NCBI GenBank assembly: GCA_027624955.1
Contig: JAQBTG010000040.1
Coordinates: forward strand, 1-33,443
Origin: Pseudomonadota bacterium
Lineage (GTDB): Bacteria > Pseudomonadota > Alphaproteobacteria > UBA828
Direction: 5' to 3'
DNA: 33,443 nucleotides
The notes beneath the pieces are model-generated. The model was not told where the DNA came from. It searched no databases and worked only from the letters and a program-made list of their open reading frames with translations. The translations under genes were made by a program, and so were the position numbers. This document shows, piece after piece, positions 8,632 to 29,110 of the stretch. How positions within the stretch are numbered: the first letter of the stretch is position 1; each line of letters begins with the position of its first letter.

Positions 8632-8640
8632 ATCTGGAGC

Positions 8641-10214: not shown

Positions 10215-11336
10215 ATGGCTGGTGATGGCGAAATTGTAATTAAGGGTATCAAGAAAGTGTTCGGACCCACGGTAGCGGTCCAGGACATTAACTTGACTAT
10301 TCCAGACGGCTGTTATTGCTGTCTGCTTGGGCCAAGCGGTTGCGGCAAGACGACGCTGTTGCGCATGATCGCCGGGCACGAAACGCCGTCAGAGGGCGAC
10401 ATTTCGATTGGTGGAACATCGGTGGTTAACTTGCCGACCGGTTCGCGCGGCACGTCGATGATGTTTCAGAGCTATGCTCTATTTCCGCATCTGAGCGTGT
10501 TGGACAATGTTGCATTCAGCTTAAAAATGAAGCGCGTCAATAAGACTGAGCGCCGCGAACAGGCATACGAAGTGCTGAAGCGCGTGCAGCTTGAACCGAT
10601 GGCCAACCGTATGCCGGAGCAATTATCTGGCGGGCAGCAGCAGCGCGTCGCGTTGGCCCGGTCCCTCATCACGAATCCAAAGGTTCTGTTGCTTGATGAG
10701 CCTCTCTCGGCGCTTGACGAGTATCTCCGCCTTCATATGCGGGCAGAGTTAAAGGCGATCCAGCAGGACCTCGGTATCTCGTTCATTCATGTGACGCACA
10801 CGCAGCCTGAGGCGCTCGCCATGGGCGACATGGTTGTGGTGATGGATACCGGACATATCGAACAAACCGGTACGGCGTTCGAAATATACGGTAAGCCGAA
10901 AACCACATATGTGGCTGAATTTATGGGTGGCTGGAACGTGGTCAGTGGGACCGTAGCCGAAATAAAAGATGGTGAAGCCACGGTCAAGGGCAGCGATGGT
11001 GTGGTGTATGGCGTCATCGCCAACGGTGAGGGCGTCGGCGCTGATATGAATATCGGCATCCGGCGCGACAAAATTCACCTCAAGCGCGATCATGCTGATG
11101 GTAAAAATTCGATAGCCGGTGTGGTGCATGCCATTGAGTATCAAGGCAATTGGGTCAAAGTAACGATCATCAAACCAAATGACGAGCGCTTGGTGGCGGT
11201 AATAGAGGATCATGAATTTTTCGAAAACCCAACAGTTGCGGGCGACCGTGTCCATGCCGTTTGGTCCGTAGCGGACGGCCGGCTGTTGGAAGAAGCAATG
11301 GGCAGTCAGAACCTAATCGGGGAGACCTTCGACTAG
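10215..11336 (+). CDS. ABC transporter ATP-binding protein (PotA-like)
   Basis: A 373-residue ATPase of the spermidine/putrescine (MOI/CUT1-like) type. Walker A GPSGCGKTT spans residues 39-47, the Q-loop is Q85, the signature LSGGQQQR starts at 137, Walker B VLLLDEP spans 157-163, the D-loop is SALDE and the switch His is H195. The last 120 residues form the TOBE-type regulatory domain common to PotA, with NIGIRRDKIHL and a YQGNWVKV motif. The Walker and signature motifs are intact, so it should be active. It heads the rightward operon with the binding protein and two permeases. Family knowledge points to import of polyamine-like or other small organic solutes; the ligand is unknown. Confidence 0.94.
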   Translation: MAGDGEIVIKGIKKVFGPTVAVQDINLTIPDGCYCCLLGPSGCGKTTLLRMIAGHETPSEGDISIGGTSVVNLPTGSRGTSMMFQSYALFPHLSVLDNVAFSLKMKRVNKTERREQAYEVLKRVQLEPMANRMPEQLSGGQQQRVALARSLITNPKVLLLDEPLSALDEYLRLHMRAELKAIQQDLGISFIHVTHTQPEALAMGDMVVVMDTGHIEQTGTAFEIYGKPKTTYVAEFMGGWNVVSGTVAEIKDGEATVKGSDGVVYGVIANGEGVGADMNIGIRRDKIHLKRDHADGKNSIAGVVHAIEYQGNWVKVTIIKPNDERLVAVIEDHEFFENPTVAGDRVHAVWSVADGRLLEEAMGSQNLIGETFD

Positions 11337-11438
11337 GACTTCCCCAGCGGATGAAGTGTCGCAGATTGGCTGGCCAGGATGTGGGGGAGCGTTAAAATAA
11401 ATGCGTAATCAGGCAGATGACAGGCGAGGAGTATGAAT

Positions 11439-12737
11439 ATGAGTAAGAACAAAAACGGCAAGACAGAAAAAGGTATTAGCCGCCGCTCAATACTCAAGGG
11501 TACAGCCGCCGTGGCTGGCCTTGCAGCAGGTACCGCGATCGGCGGTTTTCCAACAATTTGGGCACAGGACGATATCACAGTGCGCACGCTGGGCATGGCG
11601 GTTTCCAACATGCCGCAGTTGGAGGAGATGGCGAATGACGCCTTACCCTTCAAGGTCCAGCAGACGGCGGCCCAAATCCCAGACATCATGGCGCGTGGCA
11701 TCAACCAGCCGGAATCGGCTGATCTCTTTGAGCCGCCTTACATGCTCATGCGGGCCATGTGGCCGACTGGCAAGTTCCAGGCTTGGGACACCACAAAACT
11801 TCCGCAATGGGACAGTGTAGTTGATCTCTATAAGGAGCCCGGCAAGATTTGGCCGGACGCATGGTTCGGCGATGGTCAAAACCCAAGCTTTGTGGGTTAC
11901 ACCTCTGGCCAAGAGGCGAAGGACTTCGTCAAGGCCGGGTCGACCAAGTGGATCACCAACCATCCGGTGCTGCACAACGCCGATACTCTGGGCATTCGCC
12001 CTGACATCATCGGTCGTCCGGTCGATTCCTGGAAAGAACTGATCAATCCTGAGTTCGCCGGTCGTTCGGCCCTCGTTTCCTTCTCACAGATTGGCTTAAT
12101 GGACGCGGCGATGGCGTTCCAGGCCAATGGCGAGCGTGAGTACATCGATAAGGGCAACATGACACGTGAGGAAATCGATTTTTCGGTTGATCGCCTCATC
12201 GAACTTAAGAAGGAAGGCCACTGGCGTGTTCTGTGGTCAACGTTCAACGAGTCGGTCCAGCTCATGGTATCGGGCGAAGTCGTCATCCAATCCATGTGGT
12301 CGCCGGCGGTGACCGCAGTGCGCGAGCAAGGCGTACCATGCATTTATCAAGACCTTAAGGAAGGTTACCGTTCCTGGACTCTTGGCCACATGATGCCGAA
12401 ACATGTCGAAGGCAAAAAGCAGGGCGCGGTCTATGACTATGTGAGTTGGTACCATTCAGGTCCGGCCGGTGCGTTTTTTGCTCGTCAGGGCTACTACGTC
12501 GTGACACCGAAAAACACCCAAAAATATCTGCCGGCGCCGGAGTGGGATTTCTGGATGGAAGGCAAGCCGGCAACGGTTGATATTTACAGCCCGTTCGGCA
12601 AGCTCATGGAGAGTGCAGGCGCCGTACGCGATGGTGGCTCCTACAAGAACCGCATGGGCCGTGTTGCGGTATGGAACTCGGTTATGGATGAGAACGAATA
12701 TCTCACCGAGCGGTGGAACGAATTCATGGCCGCGTAA
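11439..12737 (+). CDS. Tat-exported extracellular substrate-binding protein (PotD-like)
   Basis: A 432-residue periplasmic binding protein. The second in-frame ATG (11439) is preferred because GAGGAG (11426-11431) is 7 bases before it; the first ATG at 11433 is too close. The N-terminus has a twin-arginine signal, SRRSILKG (residues 14-21), a hydrophobic stretch, and a likely cleavage after IWA. The body carries PotD-like features such as GYTSGQEA, the RPVDSWKELINPEFAGR element and a C-terminal EYLTERWNEF segment. Tat export suggests folding before secretion. A strong hairpin terminator immediately follows, expected to make this gene more abundant than the permeases. Confidence 0.9.
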   Translation: MSKNKNGKTEKGISRRSILKGTAAVAGLAAGTAIGGFPTIWAQDDITVRTLGMAVSNMPQLEEMANDALPFKVQQTAAQIPDIMARGINQPESADLFEPPYMLMRAMWPTGKFQAWDTTKLPQWDSVVDLYKEPGKIWPDAWFGDGQNPSFVGYTSGQEAKDFVKAGSTKWITNHPVLHNADTLGIRPDIIGRPVDSWKELINPEFAGRSALVSFSQIGLMDAAMAFQANGEREYIDKGNMTREEIDFSVDRLIELKKEGHWRVLWSTFNESVQLMVSGEVVIQSMWSPAVTAVREQGVPCIYQDLKEGYRSWTLGHMMPKHVEGKKQGAVYDYVSWYHSGPAGAFFARQGYYVVTPKNTQKYLPAPEWDFWMEGKPATVDIYSPFGKLMESAGAVRDGGSYKNRMGRVAVWNSVMDENEYLTERWNEFMAA

Positions 12738-12752
12738 GGTCAAGAATATTTG

Positions 12753-12788
12753 GATGCGGGGCGCCTCGGCGTCCCGCATCTCTTTTTT
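12753..12788 (+). terminator. Rho-independent terminator/attenuator between binding protein and permeases
   Basis: GATGCGGG pairs with CCCGCATC at 12753-12780, with CGCC/GGCG stacked inside, giving about 12-13 paired bases and a tiny loop. TCTTTTTT follows. Position after the binding protein and before the permease genes fits partial termination that tunes subunit ratios. Confidence 0.88.
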
Positions 12789-12820
12789 CATTTAGATAAT
12801 CGAATTTTAGGGACGCGTTT

Positions 12821-13690
12821 ATGGCGGGGTTGACAGCGATATTTAACCGCTATTCCACCATATTACAGATTTCACCTTTGGTGATCACGCTCACGCTCTT
12901 TCTCTTAGGGCCGGTGGTGGTCATCATCATCCTTAGTCTGTGGAAGTTCGACGGATTCTTGACGCTGGACGGCGTATGGACGCTGAGGAATTATGAGAGG
13001 ATTTTCACACGCTCCCTAACTGTCAGCAATTATCTGCAGACAGGAAAAATGTTGCTCATCACTTTGGGGGTAACGTTCGTTCTCGGATTTACCTTGGCCT
13101 ATTTCTTGGTTTTCGACCTGGTGAAACTCAGAACCAAGATGCTTCTCTTTTTGCTCTGTGTCGTGCCGTTTTGGACTTCAGCTGTTATCCGCACGGTTGC
13201 CTGGATTCCCTTTCTCGGTAAGGAAGGCATCATCAATAAGGCAGTTATGGGCCTTGGCCTTGCAAATCAGCCACTGGAATTTTTGCTGTTTTCCGAATTT
13301 GCGGTACTGCTCTCTTACATTCAGATTTTCACTCTCTTTATGATGGCGCCGCTGTTCAATGTGATGGCGCGAATAAATCGGGATTTGATTGAAGCTGCGC
13401 GTGATAATGGCGCCAATTCAATTCAGATACTGTTCAACATTATCTTGCCGTTGTGTAAGCCAGGCATCGCTATCGGCTCTATTTTTGTGATAGCGCTCGT
13501 CGCCAGCGACTTCACCGCCATTCGTATTCTGGGTGGGTCACAGGTCGGAACGGTGGCGGCTTCGATGGCTAACCAGATTTACAGCGCGCAATATCCGCCC
13601 GCCGCCGCGACCGCAATTATCCTGCTGCTGGCAGTCTTGCTCTTGGTCGGTGGAATTATGCGTGTGGTTGATGTGAGAAGGCAGCTTTAA
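12821..13690 (+). CDS. ABC transporter permease (PotB-like)
   Basis: A 289-residue inner-membrane protein with about six helices; the first hydrophobic segment is LVITLTLFLLGPVVVIIILSL. The cytoplasmic EAA coupling loop is visible as LIEAARDNGANSIQILFNIILPLCKPGI around residues 188-215, which contacts the ATPase. The sequence MARINRDL precedes it as in PotB-type permeases. The gene follows the terminator-like hairpin at 12753-12788 and precedes the second permease by two bases. It pairs with the 13693-14541 protein to form the transmembrane channel of the same importer. Confidence 0.92.
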   Translation: MAGLTAIFNRYSTILQISPLVITLTLFLLGPVVVIIILSLWKFDGFLTLDGVWTLRNYERIFTRSLTVSNYLQTGKMLLITLGVTFVLGFTLAYFLVFDLVKLRTKMLLFLLCVVPFWTSAVIRTVAWIPFLGKEGIINKAVMGLGLANQPLEFLLFSEFAVLLSYIQIFTLFMMAPLFNVMARINRDLIEAARDNGANSIQILFNIILPLCKPGIAIGSIFVIALVASDFTAIRILGGSQVGTVAASMANQIYSAQYPPAAATAIILLLAVLLLVGGIMRVVDVRRQL

Positions 13691-13692
13691 AT

Positions 13693-14541
13693 ATGCGGGA
13701 AGGTATCAAAAGAGCACCGGGGTATTGGCCGCGCGCCGCGCTGTTCTATATTTATTTGCTGTTTCTATACGGCCCGATCATCATCATCCTGCTTCTTTCT
13801 TTCCAGGCGGAAAATGCGTCGCTGTCATTTCCGATGCAGGGCTTTTCTTTATTTTACTTCGGTGAAATCTTCGATCCCCAATATATCGGCGATTTCCGCT
13901 GGCCGTTTGGCCGCTCGGTTATTCTCGGGCTCATTGTGATGGTGCTCACGATGGGCATCTCCTTCTTGGCCGGGCTGGCTTTCCGCAAAAATTTTAAGGG
14001 AAACATCCTTGTATTCTACATGGTGGTTGCCAGTCTGATCTGCCCTTCGATCCTCATTAGCCTCGGCATCGGGATTGGCTTCGCGAACCTCGGATTGACC
14101 AGTCAGTGGTGGTCGGGTGGCCTCGGCGCGCACCTCAGTTGGACCCTGCCGTTCGGCGTGTTGATCATGCTGGCCGTATTCAGCCGCCTCGACACCCGGC
14201 TCGAAGAAGCTGCCAGAGACCAAGGTGCCAGCCAATGGCAAACACTACGCAATGTCACCATTCCGATCACCTTGCCGGGCCTGATTGGCGTGGCATTGTT
14301 TGGCTTTACCCTGTCGTATGACGAATACCCGCGCATTTCAAACGTCGCAGGCGAGGACAATACTCTGCCCGTTGAGTTGGTGAACGCCTTGTCTTTGGCT
14401 GCAACGCCGACGATTTACGCGATTGGCACGATGACCACGTTGTTTTCGTTGACCATCATCTTCACCACTTTTATCGTCGTCTATATCATGGCAAAGCGCC
14501 GCCAAGGTCTTGGCTTGAAAAAAGCAACCGCAGACGAGTGA
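13693..14541 (+). CDS. ABC transporter permease (PotC-like)
   Basis: A 282-residue inner-membrane protein with about six helices. The coupling loop LEEAARDQGASQWQTLRNVTIPITLPGL lies around residues 173-200, and SYDEYPRISNVAGEDNTLPVEL follows as in PotC-type proteins (usually F-D-D or Y-D-E). It starts two bases after the stop of the partner permease, so translation is likely coupled. The C-terminal tail MAKRRQGLGLKKA is basic, as expected for the cytoplasmic side. It completes the PotABCD-like importer; the hydantoinase-type genes follow 136 bases downstream on the same strand. Confidence 0.92.
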   Translation: MREGIKRAPGYWPRAALFYIYLLFLYGPIIIILLLSFQAENASLSFPMQGFSLFYFGEIFDPQYIGDFRWPFGRSVILGLIVMVLTMGISFLAGLAFRKNFKGNILVFYMVVASLICPSILISLGIGIGFANLGLTSQWWSGGLGAHLSWTLPFGVLIMLAVFSRLDTRLEEAARDQGASQWQTLRNVTIPITLPGLIGVALFGFTLSYDEYPRISNVAGEDNTLPVELVNALSLAATPTIYAIGTMTTLFSLTIIFTTFIVVYIMAKRRQGLGLKKATADE

Positions 14542-14677: not shown

Positions 14678-16732
14678 ATGAGTTACCGCTTGGGAGTGGA
14701 CGTAGGAGGCACGTTTACCGACCTCCTCCTGATCGACGAAAGTTCAGGAGAAACCTATCGCGCCAAGGTACCCTCCACGCCGGAAGATTCATCCATCGGT
14801 GTGTTGAACGGTATCGAGAAGGTGTGTGGCGACGCAAATGTGAATCCGGGTGAGATCACTCATGTGATGCACGGGACGACGGTTGCGACCAACACGATTC
14901 TTGAAGGCAAGGGCGCGCGCGTTGGTCTGGTGACAACTGAAGGCCATCGCCAGGTGTTGCAGATTGCACGTTCGTTCGTGCCCGGCATTCTTGCCGGCTG
15001 GATAATTTGGCCGAAGCCGGAGCCGCTGGCGCCGCTTGAAGCGACGATCGAAGCGATAGAGCGCCGCGATGCACGTGGCGGGCTGGTCAAAGCGCTCGAA
15101 GAAGATGATCTGCGTGTAAAGCTGGAAGGCCTAAAGAAAAGAGGCATTCAAGCTCTGACCGTATCGCTGATGAACGCTTACGCCAACGGAGAGACGGAAT
15201 CACGCATCCGCGAAATCGCCGAAGAAATTATGCCGGATGTCCCGGTTTCTATCTCCTCCGAAGTGCTGCCTGAGATGTACGAATATGAACGCGCCATTAC
15301 GACGGTCGCGAATTCCTACGTCGCACCGGTGGTGCGCGAATATTTGGCCAATCTCGCCAATGAGATGAAGAAGCGCAAGGTTGATGCGCATCTACATATC
15401 CTGCGCTCCGACGGCGGGCTGTCGTCTGTCGAGGCGTCGCGCAATTCACCGGTGAACGTGCTCATGAGCGGTCCGGCCGGCGGCGTCGCCGGCGCATTGT
15501 GGATCGCTAAGCAATCCGGATTTGAGGATTTGCTGACTCTCGACATGGGCGGCACATCGACGGACGTGGCCCTGATTCAAGGTGGAGTTCCGCGCAAGCG
15601 GCGTGAAACCACCATCGGTGACATCACCGTGCGCGCATCCTCGTTGGATGTGCGCACCGTTGGCGCCGGCGGCGGTTCTATCGCGCATGTTCCCGAACTC
15701 ACGAAAGCGCTTCGCGTTGGCCCAGAAAGCGCCGGCGCGAACCCGGGACCAGCATCCTATGGCCGCGGCGGCGACCGACCGACGGTGACGGACGCTAATG
15801 TCGTGCTGGGCTATCTTCCGCCGCAACTGATTGGCGGCGAAATGCAACTTGATGTCGCGGCAGCGAGGACTGCGGTGCAGACCATTGCCGACGGGCTCGG
15901 GCTCGACCTCATGACGGCGGCAGCCGGCATGATCGACATCGTCAACGAGAATATATTTGGCGCGCTGCGCTTGGTTTCAGTGCAGCAGGGTTTTGATCCA
16001 CGTGATTTCGCGCTTATCGCCTTTGGCGGCGCCGGTCCGCTTCACGCCAACGCACTGGGCAAATTGATGGGCGCCTGGCCGGTGATCATTCCGCCTTCAC
16101 CGGGTGTGCTGTGCGCCTATGGCGATGCGACCACACGGGTGACCGACGAGGCGTCGCGCAGTGTCGTCAGGCAATTCTCCGAAATCACCCAGGAGAGTGT
16201 CGGCGAGATTCTCAAGGAACTGGAAGAGCGCGCCCACACTGAATTGGACGCCGAGGGCGTGCCGCGGACAGAGCAATCAGTGATATATGAAGTTGATCTC
16301 CGTTACCACGGCCAGGGCCTACAATTGCCGGTGACCTTCAGCTCTGAGGAATTCGAGAAAGAGGGATTGGACTTTCTGCGCCGTAAATTCGACGATATGC
16401 ATACTCAATTGTTTACATTTGCCCTCGATGCCGAGCATGAGATTGTGACATTGCGCGCCGTCGTTCAGGGCGCCGAAACATTTGTCGCTGCAGGTAAATT
16501 GCCGGAAGGTGGCGAAGACCCGTCGGAAGCTGTTGTTGCCACGGCTCAAGTTTACATGGACAATCGCGAGCAGGAAGCCAAGATTTATGACCGTTCGAAG
16601 CTCAAATCAGGCAATCGAATTGTCGGGCCCGCGATCGTCACCGAAATGGATTCGACGACCTTGATCTTGTCGGACCATGCCGGAGACGTCGACCAGTTCG
16701 GCACCATCGTTATTCGCCCGATCAGCGCCTAG
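14678..16732 (+). CDS. Hydantoinase/5-oxoprolinase family subunit A (HyuA-like)
   Basis: A 684-residue ATP-dependent amidohydrolase subunit with an AGGGAG ribosome site. The N-terminal Hydantoinase_A domain begins GVDVGGTFTD (residues 6-15), the actin-like phosphate-binding loop. A second nucleotide loop is LDMGGTSTDVAL from residue 288. MSGPAGGVAGALW and VGAGGGSIAH are further family hallmarks. Partnered with the B subunit that follows, such enzymes open N-methylhydantoin, 5-oxoproline, or related lactam/imide rings using ATP; acetone carboxylase is a distant relative but normally has a third small subunit, absent here. The gene lies downstream of the ABC importer, which suggests that its substrate is imported. 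Confidence 0.93.
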   Translation: MSYRLGVDVGGTFTDLLLIDESSGETYRAKVPSTPEDSSIGVLNGIEKVCGDANVNPGEITHVMHGTTVATNTILEGKGARVGLVTTEGHRQVLQIARSFVPGILAGWIIWPKPEPLAPLEATIEAIERRDARGGLVKALEEDDLRVKLEGLKKRGIQALTVSLMNAYANGETESRIREIAEEIMPDVPVSISSEVLPEMYEYERAITTVANSYVAPVVREYLANLANEMKKRKVDAHLHILRSDGGLSSVEASRNSPVNVLMSGPAGGVAGALWIAKQSGFEDLLTLDMGGTSTDVALIQGGVPRKRRETTIGDITVRASSLDVRTVGAGGGSIAHVPELTKALRVGPESAGANPGPASYGRGGDRPTVTDANVVLGYLPPQLIGGEMQLDVAAARTAVQTIADGLGLDLMTAAAGMIDIVNENIFGALRLVSVQQGFDPRDFALIAFGGAGPLHANALGKLMGAWPVIIPPSPGVLCAYGDATTRVTDEASRSVVRQFSEITQESVGEILKELEERAHTELDAEGVPRTEQSVIYEVDLRYHGQGLQLPVTFSSEEFEKEGLDFLRRKFDDMHTQLFTFALDAEHEIVTLRAVVQGAETFVAAGKLPEGGEDPSEAVVATAQVYMDNREQEAKIYDRSKLKSGNRIVGPAIVTEMDSTTLILSDHAGDVDQFGTIVIRPISA

Positions 16733-16742
16733 GAGAATCGCC

Positions 16743-18671
16743 ATGCCAGCCAAGATCATTCAGCCCAATAGCGTGCCCTTCAAAAAGGTCGATATTGATC
16801 CGATCACCCTCGACATCATCGAGAGTGCACTTCGAAGCGCGCGCTATGAGATGGACGCCGTGCTCTATCGGACTGCTATGTCGCCGGGCATTCGCGAGCA
16901 GCATGATGAATTCCCGATGATCGCATCGCCGAACGGCAAGATGGTGGTCGGCCAGTTCGGCTCCTTCATTCACGGCTTTAACCGTGACTATGATGGCACC
17001 ATCGAGGAAGGCGACCTGTTTTTGACCTCGGACCCCTATAGCTGCGCCGGCGCGATTAGCCATGCGCCGGACTGGTTGGTGATGCGGCCGGTGTTTCTAG
17101 ATGGCCGCCTGATCGCCTATGCCGCAATGTTCGGCCATATGACCGATGTCGGCGGCAAGGTGCCGGGCTCACTCCCGACTGATGCGGCGCAGATTTACGA
17201 GGAAGGCGTCGTCATTCCTATTATCAAGATCTACAAGGATGACGTCCTTCAGGATGATGTGCTCAAGGTGATCCTGCATCAATGTCGTAAGCCGCAATGG
17301 AATCACAGCGATTTCAACGCCCTTGTGGCGGCGGTACGACTGGCCGAGAAACGCCTTCTGGAGCTGTGCGGACGCTTCGGCGTCGATACCGTGCAGTCGG
17401 CTATGGACGAATTGCTCGAGCGTAACCGCCGCGCCATGCTGCATTTGATTCAAACCACTATCGGCAAAGACGAACGGGTCTATTTCGAAGATTATGTCGA
17501 TGACGACGGCAAGGGTATGGGGCCTTACACTTTGGCCTGCACCATGTGGCGAGAGGGAGACGATCTACTGGTCTTCGATTTCGAGGGCACCGATCCGCAA
17601 TCGGACTCCTCGATCAACATGCTCCTCAATGAGGAGATGTTCAAAATGTTCGTTGGCGTTTATTTGATCAACATCTTCGATCCGCAGATCATGTTCAATG
17701 ACGGCTTCTACGATCATGTCGATGTGCGCATTCCGCCGGGCACCATCTTAAAACCGTTGAAGCCGGCGGCGCTCTCCTCGCGTACCCATATGTTGGCGCG
17801 CATTTTTGACGTTTTGGGCGGCCTTCTCGGCCAGCGCAATCCGGATTACATGGTCGCTGCTGGCTTTTCTGACAGCCCACATTTCATGTATTCGGGATAC
17901 GACAAGGAAGGCGAGTGGTATCAACTCTATCAGATTGGCTTTGGCGGCATTCCAGGCCGGCCGGTCGGCGACGGCCCTGACGGTCATTCGCTGTGGCCGA
18001 GCTTCACCAATGTGCCGAACGAGTTTCTCGAAGCCTATTTCCCGCTCCGTATCGATATATACGAATCGATTGCGGATTCCGGTGGACCGGGCCTGCATCG
18101 TGGTGGCAATGGCATCACAATCGGCTATCGTGCTTTGGAGCCGGGCGAGATGTCGCTACATGACGATCGTTGGCTGACTTATCCCTGGGGCGTCGTTGGC
18201 GGCCTGCCGGGCCGGCGCAGCCGCAAGGAAATCGTCCGCGTTGATGGCTCGACCGAGATATTGCAACCGAAATGCGACCACGTCAAAGTCGATGCTGGCG
18301 ATTTGCTGCTGTTCCACACTTGGGGCGGTGGCGGCTGGGGCGATCCGTTCGAACGCGATCCTGCCTTGGTTGCGCTTGAGGTTGACCGCGGTTTGGTGAC
18401 CATGGAAGGCGCCAAACGCTACGGAGTCGTCCTCAATGACGACCTTACCGTCGACGAAGACGCCACCACGGCCTTGCGCGACAAGATGCGCAGCGAACGC
18501 TCTGAGGTCAAACTGATCGACCGCGGCGGCGAGATCGAGGAACTCCGGGCGCGGTGTAAGGAAGAGACCGGCCTTGAGCCCCCGCAGAAACCAGTATTCC
18601 GCGAGCACATCATCAAAGCTCTCAGAGAACGCGACGCACGCGCCCGGCGCGCAGGCGCTGCAGCGGAGTAA
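16743..18671 (+). CDS. Hydantoinase/5-oxoprolinase family subunit B (HyuB-like)
   Basis: A 642-residue Hydantoinase_B protein. The start MPAKIIQP is chosen because AGGAG (16731-16735) overlaps the stop of the A subunit; a longer in-frame reading from 16677 would overlap subunit A. Family landmarks: DPITLDIIESALRSARYEMDAVL near the N-terminus, SDPYSCAGAISHAPDW (metal-binding region in which family members have conserved Asp and His), and the C-terminal GGGGWGDPFERDP. It forms a complex with subunit A and carries the hydrolytic site, while subunit A uses ATP. Followed at 18704 by a strong terminator that ends the operon. Confidence 0.93.
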   Translation: MPAKIIQPNSVPFKKVDIDPITLDIIESALRSARYEMDAVLYRTAMSPGIREQHDEFPMIASPNGKMVVGQFGSFIHGFNRDYDGTIEEGDLFLTSDPYSCAGAISHAPDWLVMRPVFLDGRLIAYAAMFGHMTDVGGKVPGSLPTDAAQIYEEGVVIPIIKIYKDDVLQDDVLKVILHQCRKPQWNHSDFNALVAAVRLAEKRLLELCGRFGVDTVQSAMDELLERNRRAMLHLIQTTIGKDERVYFEDYVDDDGKGMGPYTLACTMWREGDDLLVFDFEGTDPQSDSSINMLLNEEMFKMFVGVYLINIFDPQIMFNDGFYDHVDVRIPPGTILKPLKPAALSSRTHMLARIFDVLGGLLGQRNPDYMVAAGFSDSPHFMYSGYDKEGEWYQLYQIGFGGIPGRPVGDGPDGHSLWPSFTNVPNEFLEAYFPLRIDIYESIADSGGPGLHRGGNGITIGYRALEPGEMSLHDDRWLTYPWGVVGGLPGRRSRKEIVRVDGSTEILQPKCDHVKVDAGDLLLFHTWGGGGWGDPFERDPALVALEVDRGLVTMEGAKRYGVVLNDDLTVDEDATTALRDKMRSERSEVKLIDRGGEIEELRARCKEETGLEPPQKPVFREHIIKALRERDARARRAGAAAE

Positions 18672-18756: not shown

Positions 18757-19644
18757 TTACTCGGCGGCTTCGTCGCGCGCCCATTTGCGTTCGAACGCCC
18801 AAACATCCTCGAAGCCCATAACACGGTGCATTTCTGTAAGTTCCATCATCGGCACATCGACGGTTGTGCTGGTGCCCTCCTTCAGGAGGGTGCCATAGGC
18901 GGATTCGAGCGCTGCGCCGGCCACCAGCATGCCAAGGCCCGGGAAGATGGCGATACTAAATCCCATCTTCTGCAATTGATCGGCCGACAGGATTGGTGTC
19001 TTGCCTTTATCCGCCATATTGGCCAATACCGGTTTGTCGAACGCGCCGCCCACTTGGCGCAGTTCCTCGATTGATTCCGGTGATTCGACAAAAATCACGT
19101 CGGCGCCGGCATCGGCGAAAGCGCGGCCACGGCGGATCGCTTCGTCCAATCCGAGCGCAGTGCGTGAATCGGTACGGGCAATAATCAAAAAGTTCGGATC
19201 TTGGCGCGCTTCAACGGCGACCTGGATTTTTTCCACCATATCTTCGATGGGCACGACGCGGCGGTCGGGAGTATGGCCGCATTTCTTCGGCGATTCCTGG
19301 TCTTCCATTTGAATCGCGGCGCATCCCGCGTCTTCATAGCCCCTAACCGTATGGTGTACGTTCAACAGGCCGCCAAAACCAGTATCACCGTCGCAAATCA
19401 AGGGCGCTCTGGTGCCGTTCGCAATCATGCGCACACGGCTGACCACTTCGCCGAAGCTGGCGATGCCCGCGTCGGGCACGCCGAGATGCGAGGCCGCCAC
19501 ACCGTAGCCAGTCATATAGAGAGCGTTGAAGGCCATCCGGTCAGCGATGCGGGCCGAAATCATGTCATAGACGCCAGGCGCGGTGATGAATTCACCTCTC
19601 TTAATGGTATCGGCTAGTTTGGCGCGCTTTTCAGATGCGTTCAC
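18757..19644 (-). CDS. Isocitrate lyase/PEP mutase superfamily lyase
   Basis: A 295-residue TIM-barrel lyase started by GTG with AGAGGA upstream. The Mg-binding pair is in ICDGDTGFGG (D85, D87), MEDQ follows, and the catalytic KKCGH motif is at 120-124 with C122. The retained Cys points to a C-C lyase (2-methylisocitrate lyase, 2,3-dimethylmalate lyase) rather than a PEP mutase. The C-terminal part, VDVPMMELTEMHRVMGFEDVW, matches the oxaloacetate-hydrolase/methylisocitrate-lyase layout. Such enzymes typically split a 2-hydroxy diacid into an alpha-keto acid and a smaller carboxylate. It is the last gene of an operon with the amidase (42-base gap). The exact substrate is unknown. Confidence 0.9.
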   Translation of the reverse strand: MNASEKRAKLADTIKRGEFITAPGVYDMISARIADRMAFNALYMTGYGVAASHLGVPDAGIASFGEVVSRVRMIANGTRAPLICDGDTGFGGLLNVHHTVRGYEDAGCAAIQMEDQESPKKCGHTPDRRVVPIEDMVEKIQVAVEARQDPNFLIIARTDSRTALGLDEAIRRGRAFADAGADVIFVESPESIEELRQVGGAFDKPVLANMADKGKTPILSADQLQKMGFSIAIFPGLGMLVAGAALESAYGTLLKEGTSTTVDVPMMELTEMHRVMGFEDVWAFERKWARDEAAE

Positions 19645-19686: not shown

Positions 19687-21105
19687 TCAGGCGCTCATTT
19701 CAGGCACCCGCGTGTGCCAGTCGGTCATGCCTTGGTAAGCGTGACCCATTTGGAACAGCTGCGCTTCCGAGAACGGTCGGCCCATGAGTTGGAATCCGGC
19801 TGGCAGGCCGTTAGCTGTAAAGCCGCAAGGCACTGCCAGGGCCGGGATGCCGAGATAATTGTTGGAGCGCGTTGTCCAGCTTAGGCCGGCAACCATTCCG
19901 GCCATGCCTTGACCCGCCGCCATGTCGGTGTCGGCTAGGCTCGGCACAGGCATGGAAAGCCCCGGCGTGTGCAACACATCGACCTTGGAGAACACCGTCT
20001 CGGTGAAGTCGCGCAACAGCTTTGCCCGCATATCAAGGGCACGCAGATATTTTGCCGCTGGAATATAGATCCCGGGTTCATAACGGCTACGCACTTGTGC
20101 TTGGTAGTCTTCGGGGCGCTCGCGCAGCCATTTTTCGTGAATGGCGACCGCTTCGGCGACGAACACGATATTGGATAAATGTGTCGGCACATGCATGTCG
20201 GGTACGTCCACTTCAACGATCTCGACACCGAGGTCGCGGAACACGGCAAGACAGTCCTGCTGTAATTTTTCAACTTCTGGCGTGATCACGTCATAGTAAT
20301 AATTCTTTGGCACGCCAAGTCGGAGCCCCTTCACCGGCGCTTTCAGACGGGTTTCGTAATCCGGTACCACGCGGCGACTGGTCGTCGGGTCGAGCGCATC
20401 ATGCCCGGCCATGATCCCAGTGAGGCGGGCGTTGTCGTGCACGGTGCGGGTGAGCGCGCCGACCGTATCCATGGTATGGGAGAGCGTCATTAGGCCGTAG
20501 CGGCTGACTAGGCCGTTGGTAGGTTTCAGCCCGACTAGACCGTTGATGCTGGAAGGAATGCGGATCGAGCCGCCGGTATCGGAGCCGAGGCCGCCATAGA
20601 CAATACGCGCCGCGACCGCGGAACCGGTGCCGCTGGAAGAGCCGCCGGTAATATATTCCGGATTCCACGGATTGTGGTTGTCGCCCCAATGCTCGTTGTG
20701 CCCGGTCGGGCCGGTAGCAAATTCTGCCATGTTGAGGCCGCCGAGATAGATGCTGCCGGCGTCCAATAGCCGCTTCAGCGCCGTGCTATCATGATCGGCG
20801 ACGTAATCCTTGCGGATTTTGGAGCCGCAGGTGCTGCGTTTGCCGGCTCGGTAATACATGTCCTTATGGGCCAATGGCACGCCATGGAGGGGCCCGCGCA
20901 ACTCGCCCCGCGCCAGCTCGGCATCGGCCCGCTTGGCATCCGCCAGCGCTTCATCACCAAGCAATTGGATGAAGCAGTTGAGCACCGGCTGCAGCGCTTC
21001 GGCGCGTGCGATGCTGGCCCGCACAACTTCGACCGAAGAAATATCCTTGCGTCGGATCGCCTCTGCGGTCTCAACCAGCGACGCGTTCAGAATTTCAGCG
21101 CTCAT
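19687..21105 (-). CDS. Amidase signature family hydrolase (AtzE/GatA-like)
   Basis: A 472-residue amidase. The Ser-cisSer-Lys triad is readable: K81 in GVPLAHKD, S156 in GGSSSGTGS, and S180 in GSDTGGSIRIP, with the 24-residue spacing seen in GatA and malonamidase. The C-terminus (PAGFQLMGRPFSEAQLFQMGHAYQ) is typical of the family. Four bases upstream ends a 66-residue AtzG-like gene, so the pair resembles AtzG/AtzE, in which the small subunit is needed for a stable 1-carboxybiurea hydrolase. GatA function is unlikely because gatB and a standard gatC are absent here. The natural substrate is probably a small amide or carbamoyl compound. Confidence 0.92.
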   Translation of the reverse strand: MSAEILNASLVETAEAIRRKDISSVEVVRASIARAEALQPVLNCFIQLLGDEALADAKRADAELARGELRGPLHGVPLAHKDMYYRAGKRSTCGSKIRKDYVADHDSTALKRLLDAGSIYLGGLNMAEFATGPTGHNEHWGDNHNPWNPEYITGGSSSGTGSAVAARIVYGGLGSDTGGSIRIPSSINGLVGLKPTNGLVSRYGLMTLSHTMDTVGALTRTVHDNARLTGIMAGHDALDPTTSRRVVPDYETRLKAPVKGLRLGVPKNYYYDVITPEVEKLQQDCLAVFRDLGVEIVEVDVPDMHVPTHLSNIVFVAEAVAIHEKWLRERPEDYQAQVRSRYEPGIYIPAAKYLRALDMRAKLLRDFTETVFSKVDVLHTPGLSMPVPSLADTDMAAGQGMAGMVAGLSWTTRSNNYLGIPALAVPCGFTANGLPAGFQLMGRPFSEAQLFQMGHAYQGMTDWHTRVPEMSA

Positions 21106-21406: not shown

Positions 21407-22828
21407 ATGAGGATAACAGCCGGCGTGACGAAAAGCCCTCCGGATCGTGACCTAACCGCCGTGCTGGCCGAGAATTTGGCCGCGCTAAACTACGAAACGC
21501 TTGGTGCTGCAGATCGTACACAGATCAAACGCCTGGTTCTGGATCATGTCGGCGTGTGCCGGCGTGGCGCCGAGCAGCCGTGGTGCTTGGCTCTCAGGGA
21601 GTGGGCCGGGCGTTATGTCGGCAGCGGCAACAGCGTGGTTTTCGGCACCACACTCCGCACAGCGCCAAATGTAGCGGCCCTGGTTAACGCCAGCGCCGCA
21701 CATGGCATGGAGCTGGATGATACCCATGACAGCTCGGTCAGCCATCCCGGCGCTGTGGTCATCGCGACGGCACTGGCGCTCGGCATCCACCATCAGGCTA
21801 GCGGCGGCGAAATCATGGCCGCTATTGCCGCCGGATATGAGGCGATGGGTAGGGCTGGGCGCGCTGTCGGTGCTTCCGATGTGATCGAATTTGGCTATCA
21901 CCCGACGGCCCTTTTCGGCGGCTTCGGCGCCGCCGCAACAGCGGGTAAACTGCTCGGCCTCGACGGGCGTGGCATCGCTTCCGCTTGGGGCCTGATGCTT
22001 TCCATGGCCGGCGGCTCGATGCAATTTTCCGAAGATCCGCTCGGCACTACGGTCAAGCGGCTGCATGGCGGCTACGGCGCGCATAACGGCATTCTCGCGG
22101 CGGAATTCGCGGCCCTCGGCATCGCCGGTCCATCGCGGGCGCTTGACGGCCGTTACGGCTTGGGCCGCTTGTTCGGCCAACATCCTAACTTCGAGGAACT
22201 TGCTAGACCGGGTGGCGCACCGCTCGAAATTCACCGCATCAGCATGAAGCCTTATCCATGCTGTCGGCTGTTTCATTCCACCATCGATGCGCTCCGGGAA
22301 GTGACGGAAAATTTCTCCCTCGATCCCGGCCACATTTCGGAAATTCGTGTTGGCGGGCCGGCCATCATGTGTACCCAACACATGCTGCGCCGCCCGGTAT
22401 CGGTGATGGCGGCACAATACAGTCTGCCCTTTTCGCTGGCGGCGAGCCTGATATTTGGCCCTGATGTGTATGAGGCTTACGGCGAGGATAAGTTCGACGA
22501 CGTGCGAATTCTTAGTCTGGCCGACAAAGTCGAAGCGGTCGAAGACGGAGAGATGGAGGCCGCGTTTCCGGAGCATTTTGGCAGTTGGGTAGAACTGCGA
22601 ACGCAGAGTGGGGAAACCCGGCGTGCCGATATGCTCGACAGCATTGGCACGCCCGCCCGGCCAATGGACGCTGCGGCGCTGCAAGACAAGATCGCCGGCC
22701 TGTTGGCCTCTCTAAAAGCGGTGCCCGAAATTGGTGAAATCACCGGCGCGGTAGAAACATTAGAGCAGGAAGGCGGGCCCGCGCGCCTGGTTTCTCTGTT
22801 TGCGATGGCTGAACACAAGGCGGTATGA
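21407..22828 (+). CDS. MmgE/PrpD-family protein (second copy)
   Basis: A 473-residue protein of the 2-methylcitrate dehydratase/aconitate decarboxylase family. Landmarks are the LVLDHVGVCRRG helix, AAHGMELDDTHDSSVSHPG near residue 100, YHPTALFGGFGAAATAGKLLGL near residue 164, and SMKPYPCCRLFHSTIDALRE near 280. It differs widely from the family member at 5978-7402, so the two are not recent duplicates. The stop overlaps the ribosome site of the following YrdC-domain gene (7-base gap). A long antisense frame covers most of it but is a shadow. Likely role: dehydration or decarboxylation of a hydroxy or unsaturated dicarboxylate in the pathway. Confidence 0.9.
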   Translation: MRITAGVTKSPPDRDLTAVLAENLAALNYETLGAADRTQIKRLVLDHVGVCRRGAEQPWCLALREWAGRYVGSGNSVVFGTTLRTAPNVAALVNASAAHGMELDDTHDSSVSHPGAVVIATALALGIHHQASGGEIMAAIAAGYEAMGRAGRAVGASDVIEFGYHPTALFGGFGAAATAGKLLGLDGRGIASAWGLMLSMAGGSMQFSEDPLGTTVKRLHGGYGAHNGILAAEFAALGIAGPSRALDGRYGLGRLFGQHPNFEELARPGGAPLEIHRISMKPYPCCRLFHSTIDALREVTENFSLDPGHISEIRVGGPAIMCTQHMLRRPVSVMAAQYSLPFSLAASLIFGPDVYEAYGEDKFDDVRILSLADKVEAVEDGEMEAAFPEHFGSWVELRTQSGETRRADMLDSIGTPARPMDAAALQDKIAGLLASLKAVPEIGEITGAVETLEQEGGPARLVSLFAMAEHKAV

Positions 22829-22835
22829 GGAAGAA

Positions 22836-23543
22836 ATGCAAGCATATGACATGAAAAAGGACGCCGCGCGCGTTGTTGATGCGGTTGAAGCGGGCGGTGT
22901 CGCCATCGTGCCACTCGATGTGGCGTACGCCATCACCGGCAATAGCGAGGGAGCGATGCGGCGGATCTTCACCGCCAAAAATCGTAGCTTCGAAAAGCCG
23001 AGCGGAATGCTGAGCAACTGGCAACTGTTCAACGATATTCAGATCTGCGGCGAGCGTGAACGTGCGGTTGTGAATTGCATCATCAATGAACATGACCTGC
23101 CGATGTCGACAGTGGCACCGTTCCACGCCGACCATCCGCTGTTTACCAATGTCGCGCCGTTCGTGATCGGCCATTCCTCAAAGGCTGGCACCATCGATAT
23201 GCTGCTGAACGCGGGCGAGTTGCATAACGAGCTGACCGGCCAGGCCTATGTGCGCGGGGTGCCGTTGTTCGGCTCCTCGGCCAATACGTCGCTACAGGGC
23301 AGCAAGTACCGCCTCGAGGATATCGAAGCGCCGGTGCGCGAAGCCGCCGATATCGCGCTCGATCACGGCACCAGCAAATACGCCAACGATGAGGGCCGCT
23401 CCAGCTCGATTATCGATCTACGCGATTTCAAGACCATCCGCATCGGCGTCAACTATGAACGCATCGCGGAAATCCTGTTGCAGAAATTCGATATCGACCT
23501 TCAAGCCAATGGTATGGCGGGAGAGCGCGCCGCCATGGGCTGA
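22836..23543 (+). CDS. YrdC/Sua5-domain protein (divergent TsaC-like)
   Basis: A 235-residue protein with the TsaC/Sua5 fold. Visible motifs: GGVAIVPLDVAY (residues 20-31; canonical P-T-D-T-Y here reads P-L-D-V-A-Y), K-x-R-x-x-x-K-P at K48, R50, K54-P55, PLFGSSANTS (143-152) and SSSIIDLR (189-196). Standard TsaC makes threonylcarbamoyl-AMP for tRNA; HypF and TobZ use the same fold to make carbamoyl-AMP. The altered first motif and the catabolic setting argue against a housekeeping tRNA role. The start is chosen for GAGG five bases before ATG; it follows the MmgE/PrpD stop by seven bases. Fold assignment is firm; the reaction is unknown. Confidence 0.82.
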   Translation: MQAYDMKKDAARVVDAVEAGGVAIVPLDVAYAITGNSEGAMRRIFTAKNRSFEKPSGMLSNWQLFNDIQICGERERAVVNCIINEHDLPMSTVAPFHADHPLFTNVAPFVIGHSSKAGTIDMLLNAGELHNELTGQAYVRGVPLFGSSANTSLQGSKYRLEDIEAPVREAADIALDHGTSKYANDEGRSSSIIDLRDFKTIRIGVNYERIAEILLQKFDIDLQANGMAGERAAMG

Positions 23544-23562: not shown

Positions 23563-24495
23563 CTATTCCGCCGCTGCGCTCGCTTTGGCCTGACGTCGCC
23601 GCTCCTGGCTTTCGATCCAGGTGAGAACGCGCCCGCCGAGCTTCAGTTCGGTGTGTTTTTCTGCCACGGCCACCGCTTTGCGGAGGCCACTCATATCGAT
23701 ACCGGTGTTGTAGCCGGAGCGCTCGAGCATGTGCACGACGTCTTCTGTCGCCACATTTCCGGTGGCGCCCGGTGCAAACGGGCAGCCTCCCAAGCCGCCA
23801 ATCGCGGTATCGAACTTGCGCACGCCGCACTCGAGCGCTGCCCAGGTGTTGGCCAGCGCCAAACCGCGGGTATCGTGGAAATGCCCAGCCAGACGCTCAG
23901 CGCCGTAGCGATTGGCGAGAGTCTCGAAGATGAATTTTACTTGTGCCGGGTCGCCCGAACCGATGGTATCCGCAACCGCCACTTCGGCGGCACCGGCTTC
24001 GAACATGCGCGCCGCCAGATCGAACACTACTTCCGGCGCGACATCGCCCTCAAATGGGCAGCCGACCGCGGTGGAGATATAGGAGCGCGGCTTAATGCCT
24101 TCTCGGACCGCGCGCTTGATGACGGCAATATTGACTTCGGTCGCGCGTTCCAGCGACATGCCGATATTTTTCTGATTCATTTCTTCCGTCGAGCCCAGCA
24201 CCAGTGCGATTGTTTTGGCGCCCGCAGCGACGGCGCGCTCATAGCCTTTCTCATTCGGCACCAGCGCTTCGAACGTGACGCCCTTATCTAGCGGTAGACG
24301 GTTATACAGCTCAGCCGCATCGGCCATTTGCGGCACCGCCTTCGGCGAGACAAAGCTCGTGACCTCGACCGAACGAACGCCCGCAGCTATGAGGGCATCC
24401 AGCATTTCGAGCTTGCCCTCGACTGGCACATGGCGCGGCTGATTTTGCAGGCCGTCGCGCAGGCCGACTTCGTTGACGATCACTTTATCGCTCAT
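23563..24495 (-). CDS. mvaB: Hydroxymethylglutaryl-CoA lyase-like enzyme
   Basis: A 310-residue DRE-TIM metallolyase. The catalytic opening EVGLRDGLQN has R13 and D14, metal ligands are in GHFHDT (H205, H207), and the signature GLGGCPFAPGATGN carries the catalytic Cys at 238. All match HMG-CoA lyase, which splits HMG-CoA to acetyl-CoA and acetoacetate; close relatives cleave citramalyl-CoA or similar 3-hydroxyacyl-CoAs. AGGAA precedes the ATG. It directly follows a CaiB/BaiF transferase on the same strand (33-base gap), a pairing that suggests the transferase makes the CoA ester that this lyase cleaves. The symbol reflects the family; substrate not certain. Confidence 0.9.
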   Translation of the reverse strand: MSDKVIVNEVGLRDGLQNQPRHVPVEGKLEMLDALIAAGVRSVEVTSFVSPKAVPQMADAAELYNRLPLDKGVTFEALVPNEKGYERAVAAGAKTIALVLGSTEEMNQKNIGMSLERATEVNIAVIKRAVREGIKPRSYISTAVGCPFEGDVAPEVVFDLAARMFEAGAAEVAVADTIGSGDPAQVKFIFETLANRYGAERLAGHFHDTRGLALANTWAALECGVRKFDTAIGGLGGCPFAPGATGNVATEDVVHMLERSGYNTGIDMSGLRKAVAVAEKHTELKLGGRVLTWIESQERRRQAKASAAAE

Positions 24496-24528: not shown

Positions 24529-25728
24529 CTAGCCGACCGTGCCGGCGGCCCGCAATGTCGCTATATCGCTTTCGCTTTTGCCCAGCAGATCGCGCAACAC
24601 GTTGTCCGTATGCTGGCCGAGAAGCGGTGGCGGCGCATATGTATCCTCGTCTGAGGCGCTCATCTTAATCGGGTTGCCCGTCATTTGCACTTCCCCGCCC
24701 TCGGGGTGGTTCACCGTCACCACCATATTGCGCGCCCGCACCTGGACGTCGTTCAAAGCATGTTCAAGGTCGTTGACCGGAGCGCACGGGATCTTGACCT
24801 CGGCCAGTTTCTCCAACCAAAAATCGCAGCTCTCCTGCTTAAGGCGGGCGCTGATTTTTTCCTCAATGAAGTCCTTGGCCGCGAGGCGTCCCGGCTGCAG
24901 GTCGAAGGCTTCGTCCTGCAATTCGTTAATCCCCATCATGTTGCGAAACCGCATCCAAGTCTCATTGGTGATAATAGCAATGATCAGCCACAAATCTTTG
25001 GTCGGATAGGTGTTGTAAGGCACATGTACGAAATGGGAATTTCCGATGGCGCTCGGCACATCGCCCGATAGGAAATACATGGTCGCCATATAGTTAATTA
25101 GAGAAATTTGGCAATCCTGCATGGAGATGTCGATATGCTGACCGCGCCCAGTGCGCTCGCGTGCATGGAGTGCTGCGAGCATGCCGACCGCGCTGAACAT
25201 GCCGCCGCCGAGATCGCCAATCGGAATGCCTGCCCGCGTCGGCGGGGCGCCGGCCTGCCCGGTGATCGACATGCCGCCGCCATAACCTTGCGCCACCATG
25301 TCGAAAGCAGGGCGCTGATAGGCCGGGCCGGATTCGCCAAACCCGGTGACGCTGCATGTGATGATGCGCTCGTTCACCTTCGAGAGCACGCCGTAATCAA
25401 TCTTGAGCCGCGCCGTCACGCCGGGGCTAAAATTGCTGAGCACGATATCGGCCTTTTTCACCAATTCGTAGAACAGCGCCAGCCCGTCTTCACTCTTCAA
25501 ATCGATGCAGACGCTTTCCTTGTTGCGATTTAGCGTCAGGAAATAGGCGCCCATGCCGTTCAGTGAATTTTTCGGGTCTTTGGCCAATAATCCGCGCGTT
25601 AGTTCACCTTTGCCCGGCGGCTCGACTTTGATCGTCCGCGCCCCGAGATCAGCCAGCAGCATACCGCCGAACGGTCCTGACAGCATATGCGTGAGGTCGA
25701 TAACGATCAGGTCGGACAATGCTTTCAT
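24529..25728 (-). CDS. CaiB/BaiF-family (class III) CoA-transferase (second copy)
   Basis: A 399-residue enzyme. The start MKALSDLIVI is preferred because AGGAG lies nine bases upstream; the earlier in-frame ATG at 25737 touches the ribosome site. THMLSGPFGGMLLADLGARTIKVE (residues 13-36) is the family opening, D172 in PIGDLGGG aligns with the catalytic Asp of formyl-CoA transferase, and GRGQHIDISMQD near 194 is conserved. Partnered with the HMG-CoA-lyase-like gene, it may resemble the succinyl-CoA:dicarboxylate transferases (SUGCT type) that activate hydroxymethylglutarate, glutarate or citramalate. It differs from the CaiB at 7399-8631, so each likely serves a different acid. Confidence 0.92.
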   Translation of the reverse strand: MKALSDLIVIDLTHMLSGPFGGMLLADLGARTIKVEPPGKGELTRGLLAKDPKNSLNGMGAYFLTLNRNKESVCIDLKSEDGLALFYELVKKADIVLSNFSPGVTARLKIDYGVLSKVNERIITCSVTGFGESGPAYQRPAFDMVAQGYGGGMSITGQAGAPPTRAGIPIGDLGGGMFSAVGMLAALHARERTGRGQHIDISMQDCQISLINYMATMYFLSGDVPSAIGNSHFVHVPYNTYPTKDLWLIIAIITNETWMRFRNMMGINELQDEAFDLQPGRLAAKDFIEEKISARLKQESCDFWLEKLAEVKIPCAPVNDLEHALNDVQVRARNMVVTVNHPEGGEVQMTGNPIKMSASDEDTYAPPPLLGQHTDNVLRDLLGKSESDIATLRAAGTVG

Positions 25729-25764
25729 TCTGCGCATCTCCTGTGGGCGTGCGGTGTTTTCATG

Positions 25765-25792
25765 TTGACAAAGGTACGGACAAATCTATGGA
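25765..25792 (+). promoter_or_regulatory. Promoter candidate with embedded operator-like sequence
   Basis: A consensus -35 TTGACA (25765-25770) and TATGGA (25787-25792) are separated by 16 bases. The spacer contains AGGTACGGACAA (25772-25783), whose right arm equals that of the 9863 palindrome while the left arm is degenerate. It would drive the rightward hydrolase gene and could be controlled together with the leftward CaiB unit. Confidence 0.5.
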
Positions 25793-25881
25793 ATAAGCCC
25801 ATTGTGGTCAATGTGGGTGGCCGCTGCGGGCTGTCATTCTGGCAGGCCGAGTTGGCAATGCAGCGAAAGGGAGTGCACGTC

Positions 25882-26517
25882 GTGGCAACTGATGCATATA
25901 AAAAAATTGGGTATGGCGATCGGGAGATCGGATTTGGACGCCGCCCCGCCGTGATCGTGGTGGATTTTCAGCGCGCCTTTACGGACCCGGACATGGAGTT
26001 TGGCGGTTGCGAACTGGTGCAGCGCGCTATTGAGAATACGGCGCGCGTTCTAGAAGTCGCGCGCCGTGCCAATGTGCCGGTAGCCAATTGTTACACCGCC
26101 TATCATTCCGAGCGCGACATGCCGCCGTGGAAGATTGGCCCGGTGCATGAGTCCTTCTATTACGGTGATCCGTGCACCGAGATCGAGCCCAAGACTTCCG
26201 ATCCAAACCATGATTTCATCTTTTGCAAAACCGGCCCGTCGATCTTTTTCAACACCCCGTGCACGACACTTCTGGCCAAGAACGGTATCGATACGACGAT
26301 TATCACCGGCTGCATGACGAGTGGCTGCATCCGCGCCAGTATCATAGATTCTTTCAGCCATGGTTACCGCACCATGGTGCCGGAAGATTGTGTCGGCGAT
26401 GCGGAGGAGGGGCCGCACCGCGATAATTTACGCGACGTCAGCCGGCGCTACGCCGATGTTATAGATTCCCAGACAGCTATTGATTATCTGGAAGACTATC
26501 GCACGAGTAACAACTAG
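25882..26517 (+). CDS. Isochorismatase-fold cysteine hydrolase (third copy)
   Basis: A 211-residue hydrolase. GTG at 25882 is chosen because AAAGGGAG lies eight bases upstream and the resulting start (ATDAYKKIGYG) matches the length and opening of family members; earlier Met codons would give an unlikely 65-residue extension that overlaps the promoter. The triad is D28 in VVDFQ, K116 in FCKTGPS, and C149 in TGCMTSGC. RDNLRDVSRRYADV near the C-terminus is typical. It is probably an N-carbamoyl or amide hydrolase. It shares the fold with the tandem pair at the left end but is only distantly related to them. Confidence 0.87.
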   Translation: MATDAYKKIGYGDREIGFGRRPAVIVVDFQRAFTDPDMEFGGCELVQRAIENTARVLEVARRANVPVANCYTAYHSERDMPPWKIGPVHESFYYGDPCTEIEPKTSDPNHDFIFCKTGPSIFFNTPCTTLLAKNGIDTTIITGCMTSGCIRASIIDSFSHGYRTMVPEDCVGDAEEGPHRDNLRDVSRRYADVIDSQTAIDYLEDYRTSNN

Positions 26518-27705: not shown

Positions 27706-28096
27706 CGCCGCTTGTCTCCGCGGCTTCGAGCTCGTCCATGACCCGCCGGCCAATGCGGAACGCCTCGACCGCTGCCGGAACGCCGCAATAGATGCCGATT
27801 TGCAGCAGTGTTTCCTTGATTTCTTCGACCGAACAGCCGTTCCGAAGCGCACCCCGGAAATGTAATTCAAACTCGGCCGGCCGGTTGAGCGCAGCTAGCA
27901 TGCACAGATTGTTGAGGCTGCGCTGCTTGCGTTCCAGCCCTGGCCGCCCCCAAACCGCGCCCCAGCAATATTCCGTCATGAACTCCTGGAAATCTTTGTT
28001 GAAGTCAGTGGCCCCCTTAAGGGCGCGATTCACATATTCCTCGCCGAGTACCTCGGTACGAATCTTGACGCCTTTTTCGAACATTTCGTTGGGCAT
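27698..28096 (-). CDS. Carboxymuconolactone decarboxylase (CMD) family protein
   Basis: A 132-residue protein with strong AGGAGAG upstream of the ATG. The CMD pattern is visible: MFEKGVKIRTEVLGEEYVNRALK opening, then LNNLCMLAALNRPAEFELHFRGALRNGCSVEEIKETLLQIGIYCGVPAA. E..H and the GCSVEEIKE segment match 4-carboxymuconolactone decarboxylase (PcaC), but no other protocatechuate genes are present, and no C-x-x-C of the peroxidase AhpD type is seen. It is probably a decarboxylase or isomerase in the same pathway as its operon partners. Confidence 0.88.
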   Translation of the reverse strand: MPNEMFEKGVKIRTEVLGEEYVNRALKGATDFNKDFQEFMTEYCWGAVWGRPGLERKQRSLNNLCMLAALNRPAEFELHFRGALRNGCSVEEIKETLLQIGIYCGVPAAVEAFRIGRRVMDELEAAETSGDD

Positions 28097-28146
28097 TTTT
28101 TCTCTCCTGCTGGGCTGGTAATTACTGGATATGCGGCCTATGCGGC

Positions 28147-29058: not shown

Positions 29059-29110
29059 GTCATCCTCTCTTCGGGTCGGGCCAGTGGGGTCGTTGACCAG
29101 TATTAGAGCA

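Follow-up and report, generated by a model that had tools for sequence, protein, structure and literature searches.

A divergent TsaC-fold protein, distinct from housekeeping TsaC, in a conserved catabolic gene cluster of marine bacteria

The window, as we call the whole 33,443-nucleotide stretch of DNA that was analysed, carries in a conserved nutrient-breakdown cluster of marine bacteria a gene for a 235-amino-acid protein of the TsaC (YrdC-like) fold. The ATP-binding site is kept in this protein and the full threonine site is not. The protein is therefore probably a pathway enzyme yet to be characterised rather than another enzyme of tRNA modification. Our tentative reading, to which we give somewhat less than an even chance, is that a distinct clade of TsaC-fold enzymes has left tRNA modification and performs ATP-dependent adenylation of a non-threonine carboxylate or a carbamate in catabolism.

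The TsaC/YrdC fold is universal, and its known roles are tRNA t6A synthesis and carbamoyl activation. An intact ATP site, an altered substrate site and recurrence in degradation clusters would mark a route to a new substrate for the fold, and make the window's cluster a source of candidate chemistry. Our literature search found no paper tying a YrdC-like protein to such clusters. In PMC12506659, 54,820 PF01300 sequences were analysed; the accessible part of that paper discusses the TsaC, TsaC2 and YciO subgroups and describes no catabolic PF01300 clade. Database labels for the divergent clade are generic (Sua5/YciO/YrdC, for example on both Variovorax copies) and therefore invite a wrong t6A annotation.

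Identification of the YrdC-like gene

The open reading frame (22836..23543, plus strand) starts with ATG at 22836 and stops with TGA at 23541-23543. As the sequence-only reading had pointed out, it lies 7 nt past the TGA of an MmgE/PrpD gene (22826-22828); the range given there began at that stop codon. Direct reading of the sequence revealed a Shine-Dalgarno-like purine tract, AGGAAGA (22828..22834, plus strand), which overlaps the mmgE stop and is consistent with translational coupling of the YrdC-like gene.

PF01300 was the sole Pfam domain found in the protein (E=2e-9; 37.7 bits against a cut-off of 25.1), so that a YrdC-Kae1 fusion of the HypF/TobZ type is absent. The sole NCBIfam match was TIGR00057, at 42.1 bits against an equivalog cut-off of 123.2, and other members of the divergent family scored 34-39 bits to the same model. 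A PHROGs search with the protein gave no match. Homologues were found at identities from 89% down to 26%, and comparison with two same-genus relatives gave a dN of 0.066-0.067, far below the dS of 0.72-1.03. The open reading frame is therefore not a chance one, and the gene is under purifying selection (dN/dS about 0.07-0.09).

Comparison with housekeeping TsaC

The source genome encodes a separate tsaC (L001; G000:C30), which scores 174 bits to PF01300 and 173.6 bits to TIGR00057 (cut-off 123.2), and it also has tsaD. In a maximum-likelihood tree with TsaC-type proteins, the divergent proteins and SMU.1377c of Streptococcus mutans grouped together (100/98) and apart from every housekeeping copy; the deep branches are long. 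Both results bear out the earlier proposal that this protein is not the housekeeping TsaC. In a wider tree SMU.1377c fell on a long branch with the housekeeping outgroup (93/85), so its placement is unsure. Two reverse-strand artefact reading frames (L126_8156 and L127_8660) entered this wider tree and were excluded from the residue counts given below. The branch of the TobZ/NodU-like domain was too long for a usable placement.

In a set of 25 related genomes, different genes encode the strong housekeeping copy and the weak divergent one. The strong copy is absent from G005, G007 and G008, whose assemblies are incomplete. PF01300 also weakly matches a third gene of the source genome (L003), which encodes a NodU/TobZ-type carbamoyltransferase. 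This locus (G000:C56, about 11204-14386) adjoins a MraY/WecA-like glycosyltransferase gene, and similar weak matches occur in most of the genus.

Active-site residues and structure

In Pa-Sua5 the ATP residues are K56xR58 and S143xN145, and the threonine residues are T33, S181 and R195 (PMC10321239). In the window protein, K48, R50, S148 and N150 align with the former, and S190 and R202 with S181 and R195. Leu27 occupies the Thr33 position, which leaves the threonine-binding set incomplete with the Ser and Arg kept. When 57 family members were compared, K48, R50, S148, N150 and R202 were invariant (57/57), the residue at S190 was Ser in 49/57, and the TsaC-type Ser147 was kept in 56 of 57. At the Thr33 position Met, Leu, Val, Asn and other residues were found; it is Thr in 1/57 and replaced in 56/57. 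The WPGPLT and RxP motifs of TsaC, aligned at about 17-19% identity, are gone. In their place are a clade-specific [LM]P...DHP insert and an LLNAG...H motif, and three new residues are nearly invariant (H100 in 51/53, N125 in 51/53 and H130 in 49/53). With the tetrad and the arginine invariant and Thr33, WPGPLT and RxP lost, the ATP site is thus intact and the substrate site changed. To judge from these residues, the protein may be an active adenylating enzyme.

The motifs picked out in the sequence-only reading are all present: the altered first motif P-L-D-V-A-Y, K-x-R-x-x-x-K-P (as KNRSFEKP) and S-S-A-N (as GSSAN). The 57-member comparison showed that the proline of K-P and the exact P-L-D-V-A-Y are clade-specific.

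An AlphaFold2 model built with 22 family sequences shows the TsaC fold with high confidence (pLDDT 93.3). The best structural match was SMU.1377c (3l7v; Z 23.2 over 220 residues), which was also the best PDB sequence match (2.2e-10). This uncharacterised protein has in common with the window family the insert that replaces WPGPLT and an SSANPSxxGN motif. It differs in having Thr in its motif 1 (PTKVGY), in its identity of about 17-18% to the window family and in coming from Firmicutes. Its gene may lie near a leu operon, and its structure paper reportedly suggested a role in tRNA modification.

TsaC2/Sua5 followed with a Z of about 22. TsaC/Sua5, the L-threonylcarbamoyladenylate synthase, resembles the window family in this fold score, in the KxR/SxN tetrad, in the equivalents of S181 and R195 and in a Ser at TsaC-type position 138. 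Unlike the family, it has Thr33, WPGPLT and RxP; the family, for its part, forms a separate clade, occurs in a catabolic setting and scores far under the TIGR00057 cut-off. A second t6A-active TsaC isozyme whose place in a catabolic cluster is incidental would fit the retained fold, ATP tetrad and R195/S181 equivalents, and TIGR00057 is after all the sole NCBIfam match. The score to that model, however, falls short of the cut-off that the housekeeping copy exceeds, and the missing motifs and the separate clade also argue against such an isozyme, which we regard as very unlikely.

Next came YciO (Z 19.7 to 1k7j), a non-t6A paralogue of TsaC. YciO lacks the KxR...SxN signature (PMC3223725); in E. 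coli its gene lies beside rnm, whereas the window family keeps the tetrad and is found in catabolic clusters. The YrdC domain of HypF (Z 16.9) is similar in lacking Thr33 and the RxP arginine while keeping KxR and SxN, as an alignment of E. coli HypF showed. HypF is a four-domain carbamoyltransferase, whereas the window protein consists of one domain and carries no Kae1 fusion. TobZ matched at a Z of about 10.6, and the likeness to RibB was weak (Z about 5, background level).

The gene cluster in the window

The upstream neighbour of the YrdC-like gene encodes an MmgE/PrpD-family hydro-lyase (21407..22828, plus strand; PF03972/PF19305). Before it, on the minus strand, lie genes for an amidase-signature hydrolase (19687..21105; PF01425, E=3e-107) and a C-C lyase of the isocitrate-lyase/PEP-mutase superfamily (ICL-type; 18757..19644; PF13714), whose KKCGH motif is intact by alignment. 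HyuA (hydantoinase A/oxoprolinase; 14678..16732, plus strand; PF01968/PF05378) has caprolactamase alpha as its nearest NCBIfam family, at 517 bits and under the cut-off of 1000. HyuB (hydantoinase B) is encoded at 16677..18671 on the plus strand (PF02538, E=3e-142). Beyond the YrdC-like gene are an HMG-CoA-lyase-like (HMGL) protein (23563..24495, minus strand; PF00682; NF004283 at 346 bits against a cut-off of 246), a family III CoA-transferase (24529..25737, minus strand; PF02515) and an isochorismatase-family hydrolase (25687..26517, plus strand; PF00857). The ABC importer genes (10215..14541, plus strand) comprise an ATPase with TOBE_2, an SBP_8 binding protein, a permease with BPD_transp_1 and a second permease-like gene; the first three were assigned by Pfam and the last by synteny with clusters of family f31. 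This importer is the probable uptake system of the pathway.

Elsewhere in the window, 5978-9930 holds a second MmgE/PrpD gene with a family III CoA-transferase and an acyl-CoA dehydrogenase, and 211-852 another isochorismatase. Across most of the genus, genes for a HIBDH-type dehydrogenase, a class IV aminotransferase and a 4HBT thioesterase (26836-29599) remain linked to the cluster, and they are possible members of the pathway.

Conservation of the context

The window's own clade consists of nine loci at at least 60% identity, in families f1, f31 and f147. HMGL and the family III CoA-transferase were found in 8/9 of these loci, the isochorismatase in 8/9, and the ICL-type lyase and HyuB in 7/9 each. 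The partner set spans f1 and f31 with a rearranged gene order. Every ICL partner retains K[KR]CGH, a motif well established for the isocitrate/methylisocitrate lyase family, and should therefore be a C-C lyase. Within this clade the MmgE partner is confined to f1 (g1-g5 and g2); the f31 clusters lack it, and there the YrdC-like gene follows an isochorismatase (L034, L129, L131 and L133). At locus L143, in a genome of just 1.9 Mb, the genes still run HyuA-HyuB-YrdC-MmgE. The earlier suggestion that the gene is coupled to catabolism thus stands for the cluster with amidase, isochorismatase and HyuA/HyuB, but the MmgE link is lineage-specific.

Other contexts were also found. In Burkholderiales the neighbours are an ICL-type lyase, aconitase/LeuC-LeuD-like subunits, TctC, a CoA ligase and CapA. 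Further settings include UPRTase with an amidase (L135, L136 and L140), an MR_MLE enzyme with a Rieske oxygenase, a thiolase and a restriction-modification island. Two different lineages have a gene for uracil phosphoribosyltransferase next to the YrdC-like gene or close to it (L135, L136 and L140; L035 and L130). At 12139-15983 of L215, YrdC-like and TctC genes adjoin a type I restriction-modification set with a RhuM gene.

That partners differ among lineages would suit a regulatory or binding protein of the cluster, such as a metabolite or nucleotide sensor, with no enzymatic role. YciO, described in PMC12506659 as a barely active YrdC paralogue unrelated to t6A, offers a parallel. The full catalytic tetrad of the window protein, in contrast to YciO, speaks against a non-enzyme, as do the lack of a DNA-binding domain and the GntR regulator that the f1 g2 clusters carry of their own. 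We regard this explanation as very unlikely.

To quantify the association, 13 clusters (60% identity) were compared with 40 control windows, which were evenly chosen and not randomised. Any dehydratase or ICL within 8 kb was found in 8/13 clusters and 2/40 controls (p=5e-5). Separately, ICL was present in 4/13 against 0/40 (p=0.002), MmgE in 3/13 against 0/40 (p=0.012) and isochorismatase in 4/13 against 1/40 (p=0.010). The association with any C-N hydrolase was weak (6/13 against 7/40, p=0.047). A dehydratase/lyase prediction fixed beforehand held in only 1/13 new loci (3 clusters), so a family-wide dehydratase/lyase partner was rejected. Enrichment in the first set without replication therefore means that the coupling is strong in the window's clade and its kin and not family-wide. 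The single new locus with a dehydratase gene was L209, where an amidase adjoins. TctC is common in the 13 new loci, whose host genomes hold many TctC genes.

Proposed function

In the adenylation reading, the YrdC-like protein would bind ATP in the manner of TsaC and use the serine and the invariant C-terminal arginine R202 to anchor a carboxylate. A non-threonine carboxylate or carbamate supplied by neighbouring enzymes would be adenylated, PPi released, and the acyl- or carbamoyl-AMP handed to a partner within the cluster. Judged by the enzyme families, the pathway would start with ABC import. HyuA/HyuB would then use ATP to open a lactam or imide ring, and the amidase and isochorismatase would carry out C-N hydrolysis. 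MmgE and the isocitrate-lyase-type enzyme would be responsible for the ensuing hydration and C-C cleavage, and CoA transfer and HMGL would act last. We also weighed nicotinate-, creatinine- and methylcitrate-like routes; none appears to explain all cluster genes. The ATP cost of adenylation in a degradative route counts against this reading, and no dedicated adenylate acceptor is visible in the cluster. The invariant basic residues could also bind a polycarboxylate instead.

The last point leads to an ATP-free reuse of the YrdC pocket, in which KxR/SxN would bind carboxylates and the protein would act on an anionic polycarboxylate as an isomerase, lyase or hydrolase. The new H100, N125 and H130 alongside the loss of WPGPLT and RxP, the polycarboxylates handled by the neighbours and the likeness to RibB, a non-ATP enzyme, point in this direction. 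However, the RibB score does not rise above background, and an exact ATP tetrad in every family member, together with the TsaC-type Ser147, is hard to square with abandonment of ATP. We consider this use of the pocket unlikely, with a modest chance of being right.

Capture of carbamate from the C-N hydrolases as carbamoyl-AMP, which is then transferred, perhaps to HyuA, is improbable in our judgement. The idea is possible because the pattern of lost residues resembles that of E. coli HypF, whose YrdC domain makes carbamoyl-AMP. In its favour are also the score of HyuA to the ASKHA-type MutL family and the pairing of a YrdC domain with a Kae1 domain in TsaD, HypF and TobZ (PMC9654439). On the other hand, HyuA lies within 10 kb of the YrdC-like gene in just 17/53 loci, no neighbour of the window gene was recognisable as Kae1-like, and the only TobZ/NodU-like protein of the genome is encoded on another contig. 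There is also no rationale for spending ATP on carbamate in catabolism. The fuller form of the idea, a free-standing ATP-dependent carbamoyl- or carboxy-adenylate former in degradation that possibly passes its adenylate to HyuA in parallel with TsaC-TsaD, seems to us slightly more doubtful still. If true, it would add a third role to those that the YrdC fold has in tRNA t6A synthesis and in carbamoylation by HypF and TobZ.

Distribution and paralogues

The divergent YrdC-like gene was found in 17/20 other genomes of the source's family, in two different sub-clades, and the divergent clade in 31/385 sampled alphaproteobacterial genomes. It was also present in 6/150 genomes of the family of G261 and in 14/399 of its order, Burkholderiales.

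Variovorax paradoxus VAI-C carries two tandem copies, and several alphaproteobacteria (G616, G720, G728, G806 and G876) have head-to-head pairs. Wherever both members of such a pair were placeable, they came from different sub-clades. The head-to-head and tandem arrangements suggest a paired function such as a heteromer. In L124, L126, L127 and L128, and also in G806, the head-to-head paralogues are about 100-200 bp apart.

L048, L147, L148 and L149 form a distant YrdC-like subgroup in which the motif-1 Pro is replaced by K in three of the four rows. The next gene in this subgroup always belongs to one cluster, which is haem-oxygenase/TENA-like in L149, and an amidohydrolase-family gene lies nearby.
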